Positions 20,114 through 27,199 of a stretch of 64,000 bases of DNA are shown piece after piece. Made by a program: the position numbers and the translations under genes. Within the stretch, counting starts at the first letter, position 1, and the number at the start of each line of letters is the position of its first letter. The stretch is from positions 372,001 to 436,000 of the forward strand of contig NZ_AP025592.1 in assembly GCF_023169965.1 (NCBI RefSeq), written 5' to 3'. This DNA is from Anaeromyxobacter paludicola. Lineage in GTDB: Bacteria > Myxococcota > Myxococcia > Myxococcales > Anaeromyxobacteraceae. The notes under the pieces are model-generated. The model had not been told where the DNA came from and searched no databases. It saw nothing but the letters and a program-made list of their open reading frames with translations.

Positions 20114-20670
20114 CCGAGGAAGAGAACGAGAACGGCGCCACCTCCCGTGCGGCCGCCTTGTCGGTCGCGCTCGAGGCCCTCGCCGAGGGGAAGCGGCGCT
20201 TCTTCGAGCGCGACGTCGAGGGCGCCCACTCGGCCTTCGAGCGGGCCTGGCGCCGGGCCGCCAACGACCCGCACGTGCTGAGCTGGTACGGCGTCACCCT
20301 GGTGATGGTCGAGCGCAACTCGAACCTGGGCGTCTCCTACTGCGACCAGGCGGTGCGGGTGGCCGGGCCGGAGCCGGAGCTCTACCTCAACCAGGCCCGG
20401 GCGCACCTCGCGCTGGGCCAGCGCGAGCGGGCGGTGCGGGCGCTGCAGCGCGGCCTCGAGCAGTTCCCGGGCGAGACCACGCTGCTCGCGGCCAAGGAGC
20501 TCATGGGCTGGCGGCGCCGGCCGGTGCTCCCGTTCCTGCCCCGGTCGAGCTTCCTCAACCGCTGGCTCGGCAAGCTGCGGTACCGCTGGGCCAAGCGCTC
20601 CTTGCCGCCCATCGAGCTCTCCCCGGTGACGCTGGGCCAGCTGCCCGAGCGGGCAGGGGAGGGGCGGTGA
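20110..20670 (+). CDS. Tetratricopeptide-repeat protein
   Basis: A 186-residue protein with two to three TPR-like units between about residues 20 and 125 ([40 protein letters not shown]) followed by a basic segment ([12 protein letters not shown]) and a short tail. No signal peptide. It overlaps coaX (ATGA) and the next gene (GTGA), so the three are translationally coupled. TPRs mediate protein contacts; the partner may be the product of the next gene. Function unknown. Confidence 0.76.
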
Positions 20671-21803
20671 CCTGCCCGCTCCCGCTCGACGCGCTCCCGA
20701 AGCCGCTGCACAAGCACGTCGACCCGAAGGCCCCGCCGGCGCTGCGCATGATGGGCGCGAAGGGGCTCGTCCCGGCGGTGGCCGCGCCCGACCTCGCGGT
20801 CATGCTCTTCTTCCTCTCCTTCGACGAGGACCCGGGGGTGCGCGAGGCGGCCGCCCGGACCGCGGCGGGGCTGCCCGACCGGATCTTCGGCGTGGCGCTC
20901 CGGGCCGAGGGGCTCCCCGGGCCGGTGCTCGACTGGCTCTCCCGGGAGCTGGGCGCCAACGAGGGGGCGCTCGAGCTGGTGCTGCTCAACCCGGCCACCT
21001 CCGACGAGACGGTGGCCCGGCTCGCGGCGGAGGTCTCGCAGCGGCTCACCGAGATCGTCCGGCAGAACGAGCTGCGGCTGCTGCGCCACGACGAGATCAT
21101 CCGCCAGCTCTGCCGCAACCCGAACGCCCTCGCCTCGACCGTCGACGGCGCCTGCGACTTCTGCGTCCGCAACGGGCTCACGCTCCTCGACGTGCCGCAG
21201 CTCGTCGCCGCCCACCGGCGCGTGCACGGCGTGGACCCGGCCGCGGCCGAGCCGCAGGACACGGCGACCGGCCTCCTCGGGGAGTACGGGCACGTGCTCG
21301 CGGAGGAGGAGCCGGCCGCGCCGGCCGGACCGCCCCGGCCCGAGGATCCGGCCAAGGCCGCCGAGAAGCTCAACATCACGCAGCGCATCCTCAAGATGTC
21401 GGTGAGCCAGAAGATCAAGCTCGCCACGCTCGGCAACAAGGAGGCGCGCACCATCCTGCTGCGCGACTCGAACAAGCTCGTGTGCATGGCCGCCGCGACC
21501 AGCCCCCGCATCACCGACCTCGAGATCCTGGGGCTCGCCAACTCGCGCACCGTGAACGCCGACGTGCTCCGCTACGTCTACACGAACCGCGAGTTCCTCC
21601 GGACCTACCCCATCAAGCTCGCGCTGGTGAAGAACCCCAAGGTCCCCTTGCCCACCGCGCTCAAGATGCTCTTCTCGCTCCAGGAGAAGGACATCAAGGA
21701 GCTCTCGCGCGACCGCAACGTGCCCCAGACCATCCAGTCGCAGGCCAAGGCGTTCCTCATGAAGAAGGAGCAGGCCGCCCGCGCCACGGAGGGCAAGCAC
21801 TAG
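20667..21803 (+). CDS. Conserved hypothetical protein with LRV/HEAT-like repeats
   Basis: A 378-residue soluble protein I do not recognise by name. It has helical repeats with a recurring NPxxxxxTxxxLA-type pattern (VLLNPATSDETVARLA; LVKNPKVPLPTALKML) similar to leucine-rich-variant or HEAT repeats. A Pro/Ala-rich linker near 205-225 splits the protein into two repeat blocks. The second block is rich in Lys, Asn and Arg and may bind nucleic acid or membrane. GTGA overlap with the upstream TPR gene suggests a joint role. murJ follows 26 nt later. Confidence 0.75.
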   Translation: MTCPLPLDALPKPLHKHVDPKAPPALRMMGAKGLVPAVAAPDLAVMLFFLSFDEDPGVREAAARTAAGLPDRIFGVALRAEGLPGPVLDWLSRELGANEGALELVLLNPATSDETVARLAAEVSQRLTEIVRQNELRLLRHDEIIRQLCRNPNALASTVDGACDFCVRNGLTLLDVPQLVAAHRRVHGVDPAAAEPQDTATGLLGEYGHVLAEEEPAAPAGPPRPEDPAKAAEKLNITQRILKMSVSQKIKLATLGNKEARTILLRDSNKLVCMAAATSPRITDLEILGLANSRTVNADVLRYVYTNREFLRTYPIKLALVKNPKVPLPTALKMLFSLQEKDIKELSRDRNVPQTIQSQAKAFLMKKEQAARATEGKH

Positions 21804-21829: not shown

Positions 21830-23476
21830 GTGGGCGCCGGGGGCGAGGACCGGGCCGGGGAGGCGCGGCCGGCCGCCGCGGCGCCGCCGCCGGTGCGCAT
21901 GCAGAAGGCGCTCTGGCTCTCGGCCGCGACCATGGCGAGCCGGGTGCTGGGGCTCCTGCGCGACCAGCTCTTCGCCGCGCTGGTCGGCGCCAACGCCTTC
22001 TCCGACGCCTTCGTCACCGCCTTCCGCATCCCGAACCTCCTGCGCGACCTCTTCGCCGAGGGGGCGCTCTCGTCGGCGTTCGTGCCCACCTTCGCCGAGA
22101 CCCGGGCCCACCGTGGCGAGGCCGAGGCCTGGCGGCTCGCCAACACCGTGGTCGGCCTGGTCCTCGCCGTGGTCGGCTCGCTCACCCTCCTCGGCATGCT
22201 CTTCGCGCCGCAGGTGGTGGCGCTCATGGCCCCCGGCTACGCGCCCGCCCAGGCGGCGCTGGCGGCGAAGCTCGCCCGCGTGATGATGCCCTTCCTGCTG
22301 CTGGTCTCGCTGGCGGCGGTCTCGATGGGCATGCTCAACGCCCAGAGCCGGTTCACCGCCCCCGCGCTGGCGCCGGCGCTGTTCAACGTGGGGTCGATCG
22401 CGGTGGGGCTCGGGCTCTGGGCGGCCGGCTGGCCGCCGGAGCGGGCGGTGGTGGGCTGGAGCTTCGGCACGCTGGTGGGCGGGCTCCTGCAGCTCCTCGC
22501 CCAGAGCCCGTCGCTCCGCGCGGCCGGCTTCCGGCTGCGGCCCCGCCTCGGGCGCGCCGCCCTCGCCGACCCCGGCGTCCGGCGTATCGGCCGGCTCATG
22601 GGCGCGGCGGTGGTGGGGCTCTCGGCCACCCAGGTGAACATCGTCGTCAACACCATCTTCGCCTCGCACCAGGAGCGGGCGGTCACCTGGCTCAACTTCG
22701 CCTTCCGGCTCATGCAGCTCCCGCTCGGCGTCTTCGGCGTGGCCATCGCCACGGTCGCGACCGCCGGGCTCGCCCAGCGCGCCGCGGCGCGCGATCTGGC
22801 GGGCGTGCAGGAGACGCTCGGCTCGGCGATGCGGCTCGTCGCCTTCCTCAACGTGCCCTCGGCGGTGGGGCTCATGGTGCTGTCGCGCCCCATCGTCGCG
22901 CTCATCTACCAGCACGGGCGCTTCACCGCGTCGGACACCGCCGGCACCGCCGGCGCGCTCCTCTGCTACGCGCTCGGGCTCTACGCCTACTCGGCCGTGA
23001 AGGTGTTCGCCCCGGCGTTCTACGCGCTCGACGAGGCCCGCGTGCCGGTGCTGGGGAGCGTGCTCGGCATGGCCTCCAACGTGGCGCTCAACCTGGCGCT
23101 CTTCCCGGTGCTCGGGTACCGCGGCGTCGCGCTCGGGACGTCGCTCTCGGCCACCGTGAACTTCGCCGTGCTCGCGATCGCGTGGCGGGCGCGCCACGGC
23201 CGGCTCGGCGGCGCCGGGGTCTACCGGCAGCTGCTGCGGGTGCTCGGCGCGACCGGCGCGCTGGCGGTGGCGGCGTGGGGGGCGGAGCGGGCGCTCGAGG
23301 GGCACCTCGGCGCCGGCCACGGCCTCGCCCGGCAGCTCGCGCTGGCGTTCGTCCCGATCGCCGCCGGCCTCGCCGCCTACCTGGCGGCCGCCCGGCTCCT
23401 CGGCGTGAAGGAGCTCTCCGACCTCGCCGCCGCCTGGCGCCGCCGCGCGGCCCGCCGGCGCGGCGCCCGCGCCTGA
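21830..23476 (+). CDS. murJ: Lipid II flippase MurJ
   Basis: A 548-residue MOP-superfamily membrane protein that moves the peptidoglycan precursor lipid II across the inner membrane. About 14 hydrophobic segments are visible. Conserved MurJ residues occur in ASRVLGLLRDQLFA near 37 and DAFVTAFRIPNLLRDLFAEG near 59. YQHGRF near 360 is also typical. The listed GTG at 21830 adds about 23 low-complexity residues; an ATG at 21899 (MQKALWLS) gives the usual N-terminus and may be the true start. A short AGTGC/GCACT stem (21802-21827) sits just ahead. Confidence 0.93.
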   Translation: MGAGGEDRAGEARPAAAAPPPVRMQKALWLSAATMASRVLGLLRDQLFAALVGANAFSDAFVTAFRIPNLLRDLFAEGALSSAFVPTFAETRAHRGEAEAWRLANTVVGLVLAVVGSLTLLGMLFAPQVVALMAPGYAPAQAALAAKLARVMMPFLLLVSLAAVSMGMLNAQSRFTAPALAPALFNVGSIAVGLGLWAAGWPPERAVVGWSFGTLVGGLLQLLAQSPSLRAAGFRLRPRLGRAALADPGVRRIGRLMGAAVVGLSATQVNIVVNTIFASHQERAVTWLNFAFRLMQLPLGVFGVAIATVATAGLAQRAAARDLAGVQETLGSAMRLVAFLNVPSAVGLMVLSRPIVALIYQHGRFTASDTAGTAGALLCYALGLYAYSAVKVFAPAFYALDEARVPVLGSVLGMASNVALNLALFPVLGYRGVALGTSLSATVNFAVLAIAWRARHGRLGGAGVYRQLLRVLGATGALAVAAWGAERALEGHLGAGHGLARQLALAFVPIAAGLAAYLAAARLLGVKELSDLAAAWRRRAARRRGARA

Positions 23477-23622
23477 CCCGGTCGCCTCGCGCTCCCGGAC
23501 GCCCGCTCCCGTGCCGGGCGCCCTGGACGTCCCTTGAACGGCGGGACCCTTCACGGAACCTTCTCCCGCGAGCGCGGCGCTCCTTACCTTGTCCTGCGTC
23601 GAGGCGGAGGGAGAGGGCGCGC

Positions 23623-23847
23623 ATGGGAACCGACGGGAGCAGCCGGATCGAGGACAGGGCGGAGGAGCTGCGCGCCGAGGCGCAGGAGCTGCAGGCGCGG
23701 CTCGCGGAGCGGCTCGAGGGGCTGCGCGAGCAGGCCGGGCGGGCGGACGAGGTGGTGCGCGCCTTCGCGCGCGAGAAGCCGATCCTGGCCATCTGCTGCG
23801 CCGCGGGGCTGGGGTTCCTGCTCGGCCGGCTCGCCGCGCGGATCTGA
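23623..23847 (+). CDS. Small membrane-anchored YqjD/DUF883-like protein
   Basis: A 74-residue protein: a charged coiled-coil N-terminus (about 8-45) and one C-terminal hydrophobic segment (PILAICCAAGLGFLLGRLAA). That order, with a Gly-rich segment ending in Gly-Arg-Leu, resembles the ElaB/YqjD/DUF883 family, small inner-membrane proteins of which some bind ribosomes. GGAGGGAGAG lies upstream of the ATG. The next small membrane gene starts 11 nt after the stop, so they form a pair. Family call is tentative because the protein is short. Confidence 0.68.
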   Translation: MGTDGSSRIEDRAEELRAEAQELQARLAERLEGLREQAGRADEVVRAFAREKPILAICCAAGLGFLLGRLAARI

Positions 23848-23858
23848 GGGGGGGGACG

Positions 23859-24221
23859 ATGGCACAGCGAACCGAGGGCGTCTCCGGGCAGCTCGAGGGG
23901 ATGGACCCCGCCGACGTCATGAAGGCGGTGCAGGCGCTGCGCGAGCAGCTGGTGGAGGCGGCGGCGCGGCTCGAGGAGCAGCTCGAGCTCGAGCGGCGCA
24001 TGCGCGAGAACCCGTTCGCGGTGCTCGGGATCGCGGCCGGCGCGGGCTTCATCCTGGGCGGGGGGCTCTGGCCGGTGCTGCGCCCCTTCGCCAGGTCGCT
24101 CGCCCGCGCGGCGACCAGCCCGGCGAACCTCATGGCCCTGGCGGCGGCGTTCGGCGCGATGCGCGCCTCGCAGTCCGGACAGGACGAGGCGGAGCCCACC
24201 CCGCCGATGGCCCCGCACTAG
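23859..24221 (+). CDS. Small membrane-associated hypothetical protein
   Basis: A 120-residue protein with an amphipathic charged helix (about 18-50, VQALREQLVEAAARLEEQLE) followed by a glycine-rich hydrophobic segment (FAVLGIAAGAGFILGGGLWP) and a second weaker one near 80-100. The layout mirrors the gene just upstream, and both may act at the inner membrane as a pair. GGGGGGA lies before the ATG. I do not recognise a named family. Confidence 0.68.
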   Translation: MAQRTEGVSGQLEGMDPADVMKAVQALREQLVEAAARLEEQLELERRMRENPFAVLGIAAGAGFILGGGLWPVLRPFARSLARAATSPANLMALAAAFGAMRASQSGQDEAEPTPPMAPH

Positions 24222-24341
24222 GGGCAGGTGGGCGCCGCGAGAACGGCGCAAGATCGAGGCCGAGATGACGCCTCGACGCCACGTCGCCGCCATCTCCCGA
24301 CGTCATCGTCGGCCGCAACCCGCAGCCCCGGGAGCGTGAAG

Positions 24342-24650
24342 ATGGCGGCAGAGGTGGAGCGAAGCCTGGTCATCGAGCTGGAGGGGAACTTCGACGGCCG
24401 CTCCGCGCGCGACGTGCGCGGCCGGCTGGCGGCGCTCCCGCGCGACGTCCGCGTGGTGCTCGACTTCAGCCGGGTCCGCGAGTTCGCCGACGCGGGCGTC
24501 GCGGTGATGGCGCAGGCGCTCGAGGAGCTGGGCTCGCCGCGGGTGGTGATGCGCGGCCTCCGCCAGCACCAGCACCGGCTGTTCCGCTACCTGGGCGTGG
24601 ACCCCGAGGCGCTCGCCGCGGGCGTCGGCTCCTCCGCCGCCGGCGCCTGA
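24342..24650 (+). CDS. STAS-domain (anti-anti-sigma-like) protein
   Basis: A 102-residue protein with the STAS fold order: LVIELEGNFDGRSARDVRGRL, then VRVVLDFSRVREFADAGVAVMAQALEEL. The Asp-Phe-Ser strand and a following Asp-Ala-Gly take the place of the (D)xSG(x)G segment of SpoIIAA-type proteins; the phosphorylatable Ser is replaced (ADAG), so a kinase-regulated switch is doubtful. The ATG at 24342 is preceded by GGGAG. Its last 64 bp overlap the convergent FrzS/AglZ-like gene. Confidence 0.72.
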   Translation: MAAEVERSLVIELEGNFDGRSARDVRGRLAALPRDVRVVLDFSRVREFADAGVAVMAQALEELGSPRVVMRGLRQHQHRLFRYLGVDPEALAAGVGSSAAGA

Positions 24651-25630
24651 GACGCCTCCGCCCCGAGCAGCTGCTGGGCGATGGCGAGCGCCTTGCGCGC
24701 CCGCTCGCGGGCCTCGTCGTCGTGGCGGAGCCGCGCCACCGCCCGGAGCACCCGCTCCTCGGCGCGCGCCAGCCTGGCCTCGAGCTCCCGGCGCGCCGCC
24801 TCCGAATCCTCCAGGGCGCGGGTGAGCCGCGCCACCTCGGCGTCGCGTGCCTCGCCGGAGGTCGGCGCCGGGAGCGGATCGAGGGCCGCCGCGAGCGGCG
24901 CGGCCTCCGCGGCCGGCTCGGGCTCCGGCCCGGGGGAGGGATCCGGCGCGAGCTCGAGCGACACCTCGAGACCGGACTGGCCGTCGAGCGGCGCCTCCGG
25001 CCCCAGCGCCGCTTCGCCCGGCGTGCCCTCCGGCGGGAGCTCCAGCCCGACCTCCACCTCCGCCTCGGCCTCGGCCTCGGGCGGCGCCGCGCCCTCCAGC
25101 CGCTCGAAGGCGTCGTCGAGGAACTTGAGGTCGTCGTCGCCGCCGGCGAGCGGGTTGGCGCCGTCGAGGGCGGTGGCCCCGGTGGGCTCGAACTCGACGT
25201 CGTCGAGCGAGACCAGCTCCTGCTCGGCGTGCGCCGGAGCCGCGGGCGCCGCCGGGTCGAACCCGACGATGGGCGCGAGCTTCTCGACCAGCGCCTGCAT
25301 CGGGAACGGCTTCAGGAGGTACTCCTCGGCGCGCCCCTTCAGCCGGCGGTGCTGGTCGAAGGTCTCGAGGGTGGACTCGGAGCTCGTGAGGACCACCGCG
25401 ATGTCCTTGAGCGCCGCGTCCTTCTTGAGCTTCTGGCAGACCGACCAGCCGGAGACGCGGGGCAGCTCCACGCAGAGGACGATGGCGTCGGGCCGCTCCT
25501 CCTGCGCCAGCTCCAGCCCCTCCTTGCCGTCGCCGGTGACCCGGACCTCGACACCGTGGGCCTCGAGGGCCTTGTAGATCTCGCGGGCGTGAGCGGTGTC
25601 GCTCTCGATGAGCAGGACTCTCTTGGCCAT
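24587..25630 (-). CDS. FrzS/AglZ-like pseudo-receiver with C-terminal coiled coil
   Basis: A 347-residue protein. The N-terminal 1-124 region is a receiver fold (RVLLIESDTA; RPDAIVLCVELPRVSGW; KLKKDAALKDIAVVLTS; AEEYLLKPF). The phospho-acceptor Asp is replaced by Cys53, so phosphorylation is unlikely. The pattern closely recalls the N-termini of M. xanthus FrzS and AglZ, whose pseudo-receivers act in cell polarity and motility. An acidic Pro/Ala-rich middle is followed by a heptad-like coiled coil (about 262-327), shorter than in FrzS or AglZ. ATG 25630 has GGGGAG upstream. Homology is judged from memory of those sequences. Confidence 0.84.
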   Translation of the reverse strand: MAKRVLLIESDTAHAREIYKALEAHGVEVRVTGDGKEGLELAQEERPDAIVLCVELPRVSGWSVCQKLKKDAALKDIAVVLTSSESTLETFDQHRRLKGRAEEYLLKPFPMQALVEKLAPIVGFDPAAPAAPAHAEQELVSLDDVEFEPTGATALDGANPLAGGDDDLKFLDDAFERLEGAAPPEAEAEAEVEVGLELPPEGTPGEAALGPEAPLDGQSGLEVSLELAPDPSPGPEPEPAAEAAPLAAALDPLPAPTSGEARDAEVARLTRALEDSEAARRELEARLARAEERVLRAVARLRHDDEARERARKALAIAQQLLGAEASQAPAAEEPTPAASASGSTPR

Positions 25631-25702: not shown

Positions 25703-26536
25703 CTAGCGGCCGCCGTGGACGGCCTGCGCGTCGGCCACCAGGTCCGACAGCTCGCGCTCGTCGAGGTCGGAGACCACCGAGTAGACGATGTCGTTCTGGC
25801 GCCAGACCGCCACGCGGTAGCCGCGGGTCTGGGCCAGCCAGACGTCGGCCGGGCCGAGGTGGCGCAGCTGCCCGGCCCCGGTGAAGCGCCCGTCGGGATC
25901 GTCGAGGATGAAGACGCCGATCCGGCCGCGCGGCGCGTCGTAGCGCATGTAGGCCGCCGGCCAGTCGCGCAGGTGCGAGAGGCGCGCGCCCACGAGCCGC
26001 ACGCCGGCGCGGTGGAAGCGGGGCGGGGCGGGGTTGAAGTCGAGCTTCCCGGCGAACCAGCCGGCCACCGAGTCGGCGCCGGTGGAGGCGGCGGTCACCT
26101 CGAGCGGGAGGTCGCGCACGTGCCGCCGCACCGCCTCCTCCACGAAGGGATCCGAGCGGAGCTCGGTGGTGCGCTGGCGGGCGACCGCGAAGCCGGCCGC
26201 GAGCACGAGGAAGAGCGCGGCGGCGGAGAGCGCCGCCGGCCTGCGCCAGGGCGGGCGCCGCTCGTGCTCGAGCGCCTCGAGGATCCGCCGCCGCAGCTCG
26301 GCCGGCGCCCGGCCCGCCGCCGAGCCCTCGCCGAGGCAGCAGCGCAGGCTGGAGCGGAGCGCGGACTGGAAGCGGGCGTGCTCCTCGACGAGGAGGCGGC
26401 ACGGCGGGCAGACGGAGACGTGGGCCTCCACCTCGGCCCGCTCGCGCTCCTCGAACTCGCCGTCCACGAAGGCGTCGAGGGAGCGCTTGAGCTCCTCGCA
26501 GTCCATGGTGGCGGTCGCTTCCCGGATCTCGGCCAT
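25703..26536 (-). CDS. Zinc-finger anti-sigma factor, membrane-anchored
   Basis: A 277-residue protein. The N-terminus has the ZAS zinc motif: H39, C43 and C46 in AHVSVCPPC, with C13 as a possible fourth ligand. One transmembrane segment (about 100-122, SAAALFLVLAAGFAVA) leads to a periplasmic domain of about 150 residues with several Trp and Tyr. It starts 21 nt after the stop of the ECF sigma gene, the standard arrangement in which the anti-sigma holds its sigma factor at the membrane until an envelope signal releases it. The signal is unknown. Confidence 0.86.
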   Translation of the reverse strand: MAEIREATATMDCEELKRSLDAFVDGEFEERERAEVEAHVSVCPPCRLLVEEHARFQSALRSSLRCCLGEGSAAGRAPAELRRRILEALEHERRPPWRRPAALSAAALFLVLAAGFAVARQRTTELRSDPFVEEAVRRHVRDLPLEVTAASTGADSVAGWFAGKLDFNPAPPRFHRAGVRLVGARLSHLRDWPAAYMRYDAPRGRIGVFILDDPDGRFTGAGQLRHLGPADVWLAQTRGYRVAVWRQNDIVYSVVSDLDERELSDLVADAQAVHGGR

Positions 26537-26557: not shown

Positions 26558-27199
26558 CTACGCCGACTCGGCCTTGCGCCGCTTGCGGTACTCGTCGAGG
26601 TCGACGCTCTCGCCCGCGGCCTTCGCCGACACCACGCCCGAGAGCACCGCGTAGCTGCCGAGCGACTTCTGCAGCAGGCGGCGGCCGCGGAACAGGCGGC
26701 TCATCACCGTGCCCACCGGGATCTCGAGGATCTCGGCGATCTCCTTGTAGGAGAACTCCTGCAGGTCGGCGAGGATCACCACCATCCGGAAGTCGATGGG
26801 CAGCGCGTCCACGGCCTGGAGCACGTCGTCCGAGAGCAGCCGGTCGAAGAAGAACTGCTCCGGGTTGGCGGCGTACTCGGTCGCCTCGCGCGAGATGAAC
26901 CGCTCGTGCACCGCCTCGCGCTCCGAGCCCTCGACGATGTTCCGCTCCTTCACGTTCCGCCGGTAGCGGTTGATGAAGGTGTTGGTCAGGATCTTGAAGA
27001 GCCAGGCCTTGATGTTGGTCCCGCGCTCGAACTTGTCGAAGAAGCGGTAGGCGCGCAGGAAGGTGTCCTGGACCAGGTCCTCCGCGTCGCGCTCGTTCTT
27101 GGTGAGCCGGAGCGCCGCCGAGAAGAGCGGGTCGATGTGCTGCAGCGCCAGGTGCTCGAACTCCCGCCGGGTGCCGTCGGTCTGTCGCAGGTCGAACAT
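26558..27199 (-). CDS. ECF-type RNA polymerase sigma factor
   Basis: A 213-residue sigma factor from the ATG at 27199. Region 2 spans about 12-85 ([20 protein letters not shown], then [22 protein letters not shown]); region 4 about 130-185 ([41 protein letters not shown]). No region 1 or 3 is present, as in group 4 (ECF). A short acidic/basic tail follows. The anti-sigma gene is next in the operon. GGAACC on the minus strand about 60 nt upstream is a possible ECF-type -35, which would allow autoregulation, but the -10 is unclear. Confidence 0.93.

Follow-up and report, generated by a model that had tools for sequence, protein, structure and literature searches.

FrzS of Myxococcus xanthus is built from a receiver domain, a 258-residue coiled coil and a C-terminal tail, all of which are reported to be required (PMC1974792). 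The same paper reports that His92 and Tyr102 of the receiver are needed for social motility (S-motility) and for placement at the leading pole, while Asp55 is not. The coil has been reported to suffice for polar placement, with the receiver binding SgmX (PMC11580455), and the lack of a functional phospho-site in FrzS and AglZ proteins was already published by Guzzo et al. (PMC4546325). Here, we study a gene on the minus strand (24587-25630) of a 64,000-nucleotide stretch of the Anaeromyxobacter paludicola genome. In the following, "the window" refers to that whole stretch. As judged from sequence comparison, this Anaeromyxobacteraceae genome has its FrzS orthologue here. We put a probability of roughly 0.85 on the reading that it is a FrzS orthologue with a shortened coil, which would act by the mechanism transferred from M. 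xanthus.

The sole real peculiarity of the gene is the unusually short coil on a known protein; the rest of the finding is ordinary. The non-phosphorylatable nature of FrzS-type receivers is already published and the short coil is the new part. Among the titles and abstract openings listed for FrzS we found none concerning a short-coil FrzS, a coverage that excludes the supplement of PMC4546325, where FrzS domains are tabulated.

Assignment to FrzS

The open reading frame (ORF) is intact and encodes 347 amino acids (aa), with its ATG at 25630 and its stop codon at 24587-24589. Residues 1-123 form the receiver fold, for which most AlphaFold2 blocks have a predicted local distance difference test (pLDDT) value above 90; Pfam's Response_reg spans residues 5-118 thereof (61 bits, E 1.5e-16). 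Residues 124-256 are a linker of Ala, Pro and acidic residues, mostly of low AlphaFold2 confidence, in which a short helix is predicted (166-180), and the protein ends in two predicted helices (259-300 and 305-327).

A sequence search of the PDB returns the FrzS receiver of M. xanthus (2gkg; 86.4 bits, E 2.1e-23) as top match, followed by RpaA (59.9 bits) and DivK (52.7 bits) as the first matches other than FrzS. The same ranking is found for the predicted fold, where Foldseek places FrzS (2i6f; E 1.6e-12, 40% identity) first and RpaA second. For NCBIfam, 81 models matched, and each of the 25 listed scores far below its own cut-off. The residue set of canonical response regulators (Asp pair, acceptor Asp, Thr/Ser, Lys) is incomplete: Glu9-Ser10 and Cys53 stand at the Asp sites, and Ser83 and Lys107 are retained. 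Here, Glu9, Ser83, Tyr104 and Lys107 fall into the CheY D12, T87, Y106 and K109 columns. An ordinary response regulator is rejected on the PDB and Foldseek rankings together with the NCBIfam scores.

Matches with E <= 1e-16 are found in 22/24 genomes of the family (the two without are 79% complete) and in 133/145 genomes of the order, mostly with one such gene per genome. The order-wide scan scored 14 candidates per genome. With this conservation across family and order, the sequence is not that of a chance ORF. All orthologue counts below refer to 76 genes, i.e., the window gene and one gene each from 75 other genomes out of the 133 matched. The 75 comprise all 21 other matched family members as well as 54 others that we chose for spread. 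Excluded were L009 (same sequence as L030), the second copies L058-L070 and paralogues or other receivers (L043-L049, L117); L112 was retained though doubtful (828 aa, long branch). Counts on tails are based on 72 of the 76, since four rows lack their 3' end.

When 102 receivers are placed in a tree, a single branch separates the 76 FrzS rows from the others, with a support of 87 in the Shimodaira-Hasegawa-like approximate likelihood ratio test (SH-aLRT), and the AglZ-like rows form a neighbouring group outside. The gene order around frzS is common to most of the 20 relatives' loci that have flanks, two of which are very short contigs. Two Myxococcus-like loci (L073, L074) share this order, and the receiver of L074 is nearly identical to the crystallised FrzS. 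Since FrzS is the best match by sequence and by fold, and given the shared gene order and the tree position, we call the gene a FrzS orthologue. The sequence-only reading had proposed a FrzS-like receiver from peptides that are indeed present in the protein, and gene order and tree make the case stronger than claimed. The outcomes that would have spoken for something else, i.e., a better match to ordinary regulators or orthologues with Asp at position 53, were looked for and neither was seen.

Acceptor site and coil length

Position 53, the phospho-acceptor column, is occupied by Ala (35), Cys (31), Ser (7), Asn, Gly and Met (1 each) and never by Asp among the 76 orthologues. Within the gene's own family, Cys is found in 19/22 and Ser in 3/22 (an A. 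dehalogenans-like group). The Myxococcus-containing family has mostly Ala, and all 35 rows of family f6 have Ala, Gly or Met. At position 10, neither Asp nor Glu occurs in any of the 76, while His94 and Tyr104, corresponding to His92 and Tyr102 of FrzS, are invariant (76/76). A position 53 that varies without ever being Asp, next to a fixed His94 and Tyr104, implies that the acceptor site drifted among small uncharged residues and that the output residues were kept. The replacement of the acceptor Asp by Cys, pointed out from the sequence alone, is thus true but not peculiar: judging from the aligned sequences, Cys53 is an inherited small residue and an old family trait. This order-wide drift with fixed His and Tyr fits the published view of the FrzS receiver as a phosphorylation-independent binding surface.

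Ser83 accompanies Cys53 in all 31 Cys rows, and Gly is found at position 83 in 34/35 Ala53 rows. This pairing tracks the families, with 2 changes on the tree needed at position 83 and at least 10 at position 53. Since Ser stands at the T87 position, the protein keeps its Tyr-Ser/Thr coupling residues (Tyr and Ser are present), which M. xanthus FrzS does not have both of. A review reports only 47% of pseudo-receivers to retain both Tyr-Thr coupling residues (PMC12632262). For the site opposite CheY T87, the sequence alignment pairs Ser83 with Gly84 of FrzS; the FrzS paper names Gly88 (PMC1974792).

With 347 aa, the protein is the third shortest of the 72 complete orthologues (median 564). Its longest proline-free tail run covers residues 257-329, i.e., 73 residues compared to a median of 244, which together with the AlphaFold2 helices agrees with the coil of about 65 residues estimated earlier. 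An extensive C-terminal coiled coil like the 258 residues of M. xanthus FrzS is not found in this protein, which has a short helical C-terminus. The sole other genome of the genus encodes 392 aa with a proline-free run of 66; the short tail is therefore heritable. Also short (306 aa) is the protein of G014, which belongs to another genus of the family.

Despite its length, the tail retains a helix motif at residues 291-322 that scores 40.2 bits against a hidden Markov model (HMM) whose 54 input tails all come from other genera. This motif exceeds 8 bits in 65/72 tails, and the best shuffle of the tail studied here reaches 7.6 (2000 shuffles made, of which 1188 returned a score). The conserved C-terminal segment was first recognised here and is not a published FrzS criterion. 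A linker pattern, DLxxLDxAF, is found in 50/72 complete tails and in 1/7200 shuffled tails. Since this pattern was defined after viewing the tails and is absent from both Myxococcus-like genomes (G103, G118), it carries less weight than the C-terminal motif; a stricter acidic-linker pattern matches just 27/72 tails. As a side observation, the FrzS tail of L071 (G058) shifts to an Arg-rich frame where close relatives have about 590 aa, probably due to a frameshift or sequencing error.

Partner genes, proposed mechanism and competing readings

The genome is a single contig of 4.59 Mb in which the partner genes examined are present. An mglB-mglA pair matches M. xanthus structures (MglB E 7.7e-65, MglA E 2.6e-109), and a type IV pilus cluster includes PilB (over its cut-off), PilC, PilT, PilM and PilO. 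A 973-aa TPR protein adjoining accC and accB (G000:C1:2395181-2398099) is, on similarity and position, taken as the putative SgmX: its C-terminal 300 residues give a single match per genome in 6/6 genomes (E 4e-59 in two Myxococcus-like ones), and its cluster is colinear with that of the Myxococcus-like genome G118, where the TPR ORF has 1056 aa. The earlier proposal of a reduced ancestral motility system or another use of the scaffold is not supported, given the presence of MglA, MglB, the syntenic SgmX candidate and the pil cluster. Against its premise, a genus not noted for gliding, surface motility is reported for A. dehalogenans, in which type IV pilus genes are present (PMC2330069). FrzS itself belongs to type IV pili and not to gliding. 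The region downstream of mglBA also encodes large TPR-repeat-like proteins of 1066, 491 and at least 334 aa (L138 14066-20000, plus strand), which are possibly motility-related.

By analogy, the protein most likely recruits SgmX to the pole in the service of type IV pili and would thereby help to place PilB and the pili at one pole. The underlying mechanism of FrzS, SgmX and pili is taken from M. xanthus (PMC11580455, PMC12632262, PMC7668184), such that binding, polar localisation and pilus control are transferred to this protein by analogy. The short C-terminal helix or coil would oligomerise FrzS, and the coil plus the conserved C-terminal motif would dock it at the cell pole. The receiver, which cannot be phosphorylated, would offer an unchanging surface to which the TPR protein SgmX binds once MglA-GTP has opened it; SgmX would then carry PilB, the ATPase of pilus extension, to the pole. 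At the vacant phospho-site, Cys53 would just be a small uncharged filler. The MglA-SgmX-FrzS pilus-polarity module known from work on M. xanthus is thus also located in an Anaeromyxobacter-family genome, where FrzS is compact and so provides a natural test of the coil length needed.

Several observations weigh against this reading. The coil has only about 65-73 residues compared to the 258 required in M. xanthus, such that docking or oligomerisation might work in another way here. Trp62 (codon 25445-25447, minus strand) is found where 73/76 orthologues have Tyr, Ala78 (25397-25399, minus strand) where 71/76 have Pro, and both are located within or next to the alpha3-beta4-alpha4 surface that reportedly binds SgmX. 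Furthermore, the receiver tree is based on 127 columns only, its branch support of 87 is not starred and several branches are long.

Among the competing readings, a gliding scaffold like AglZ in place of FrzS is barely probable. FrzS and AglZ families have a common architecture, and the receiver is 38% identical to an Anaeromyxobacter AglZ-like protein; yet it shows 59% identity over 144 residues to the FrzS orthologue of that same genome (G002), the gene is syntenic with frzS of Myxococcus-like genomes and it falls on the FrzS side of the tree. In addition, the genome has a separate AglZ-type gene (G000:C1:1507453-1510578, minus strand; L168 7454-10579, receiver in L006). Its product of 1041 aa joins another pseudo-receiver, in which Arg takes the acceptor position, to a long and continuous coiled coil; the exact orthology of this gene is unsure because of a long branch. 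An A. dehalogenans-type AglZ-like protein is found in 11/24 family genomes and in none of the gene's own genus. The idea that the genome has no AglZ at all was dropped in view of the divergent 1041-aa AglZ-type protein. The likeness to AglZ noted earlier therefore holds as paralogy and fails as identity. Very unlikely, too, is a redox-switched pseudo-receiver, in which Cys53, with or without Cys65, is oxidised and alters the output face, such that the redox state is reported in a facultative anaerobe. Cys53 is frequent (19/22 in the family, 31/76 overall) and always combined with Ser at the T87 position, and Cys65 is present in 75/76 orthologues. Against a redox site, as suggested for the Cys from sequence alone, speak the Ser at position 53 in 3/22 of its own family, the Ala in most members of the family with Myxococcus, in which FrzS is functional, and at least 10 state changes at this position; the site of Cys65, in turn, is probably one at which receivers often have Cys. 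The conserved, functionally needed Cys expected of redox-regulated atypical response regulators is thus not what the 76 orthologues show at position 53. Other atypical response regulators are reported to be redox-switched via Cys, but at different positions (PMC12632262).

The short length, third among the 72 complete orthologues, the short coil and the unusual Trp62 and Ala78 could also point to a reduced relic, i.e., a decaying system whose shortened gene no longer controls pili. We consider the chance of this slender: the reading frame is uninterrupted, the same short architecture recurs in the second genome of the genus, and the receivers of these two genomes differ by a non-synonymous divergence (dN) of 0.12 and a synonymous one (dS) of 0.30. 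Moreover, the functional residues, the C-terminal motif and the partner genes are retained. A truncated pseudogene is rejected on the retained motif and the dN and dS values. Beyond the FrzS assignment, one may tentatively combine two further proposals, which we jointly regard as rather doubtful: a naturally minimal FrzS, for which pseudo-receiver, DLxxLDxAF linker and C-terminal helix motif suffice in this genus and most of the coil needed by M. xanthus FrzS is dispensable, and a Cys53/Ser83 pocket (all 31 Cys orthologues) that serves as lineage-specific substitute of the Asp/Thr switch instead of being dead space.

Neighbourhood and comparison with known systems

The features of the gene and its conserved neighbours are collected in the table. 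Beside the listed neighbours, a pantothenate kinase ORF recurs in 16/20 frzS loci. The 378-aa ORF adjoins frzS outside the gene's own family and is directly convergent with it in Myxococcus-like loci. In the window, genes for MurJ (lipid II flippase), a DUF883-like and a STAS protein (21932-24650, plus strand) lie between the two, and MurJ matches at the frzS-adjacent site are seen only in own-family loci.

Table. Coordinates in the window of the frzS gene, its parts and its conserved neighbours.
Feature	Position	Strand	Basis
frzS orthologue (by sequence), 347 aa	24587..25630	-	ORF; FrzS top PDB match; gene order; tree
Pseudo-receiver domain, residues 1-123	25262..25630	-	Pfam Response_reg 5-118; AlphaFold2; Foldseek FrzS first
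Ser10 codon, CheY D13 (metal-binding) column	25601..25603	-	Asp/Glu in 0/76 orthologues
Cys53 codon, CheY D57 (phospho-acceptor) column	25472..25474	-	Counts in 76 orthologues
Ser83 codon, CheY T87 column	25382..25384	-	Ser 38, Gly 37, Ala 1 (n=76)
His94 codon (= FrzS His92)	25349..25351	-	76/76 invariant
Tyr104 codon (= FrzS Tyr102)	25319..25321	-	76/76 invariant
Linker motif DLKFLDDAF, residues 167-175, inside predicted helix 166-180	25106..25132	-	Pattern in 50/72 tails
Shortened helical/coiled-coil segment, residues 259-329	24644..24856	-	AlphaFold2 helices; proline-free run 257-329
C-terminal helix motif, residues 291-322	24665..24760	-	40.2 bits to tail HMM
zf-HC2 (anti-sigma-like) gene, conserved upstream neighbour	25706..26506	-	Pfam; homologue in 18/20 loci
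Sigma-70 family factor, conserved upstream neighbour	26561..27199	-	Pfam; homologue in 17/20 loci
378-aa conserved syntenic ORF, no Pfam match	20667..21803	+	Homologue in 17/20 loci

With canonical response regulators (RpaA, DivK, PhoB), the window protein shares the receiver fold, but their match scores are lower and they retain the Asp pair as well as the acceptor Asp. The combination of pseudo-receiver and coiled coil is also that of AglZ and its AglZ-like relatives, which are published FrzS paralogues (PMC4546325); unlike the window protein, these have a longer, continuous coil and lie on another branch of the tree. The closest likeness is to M. xanthus FrzS (2gkg, 2i6f), with which the protein has in common the receiver fold (40% identity), the lack of both the acceptor Asp and the D13 Asp, the His92/Tyr102 pair, the linker, a C-terminal coil with the C-terminal motif, and the gene neighbourhood. 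It differs from FrzS in having Cys in place of Ala at position 53 and Ser in place of Gly in the T87 column, and in its coil of about 65-73 residues compared to the published 258. The whole protein has 347 aa compared to 561 aa in the Myxococcus-like G118.
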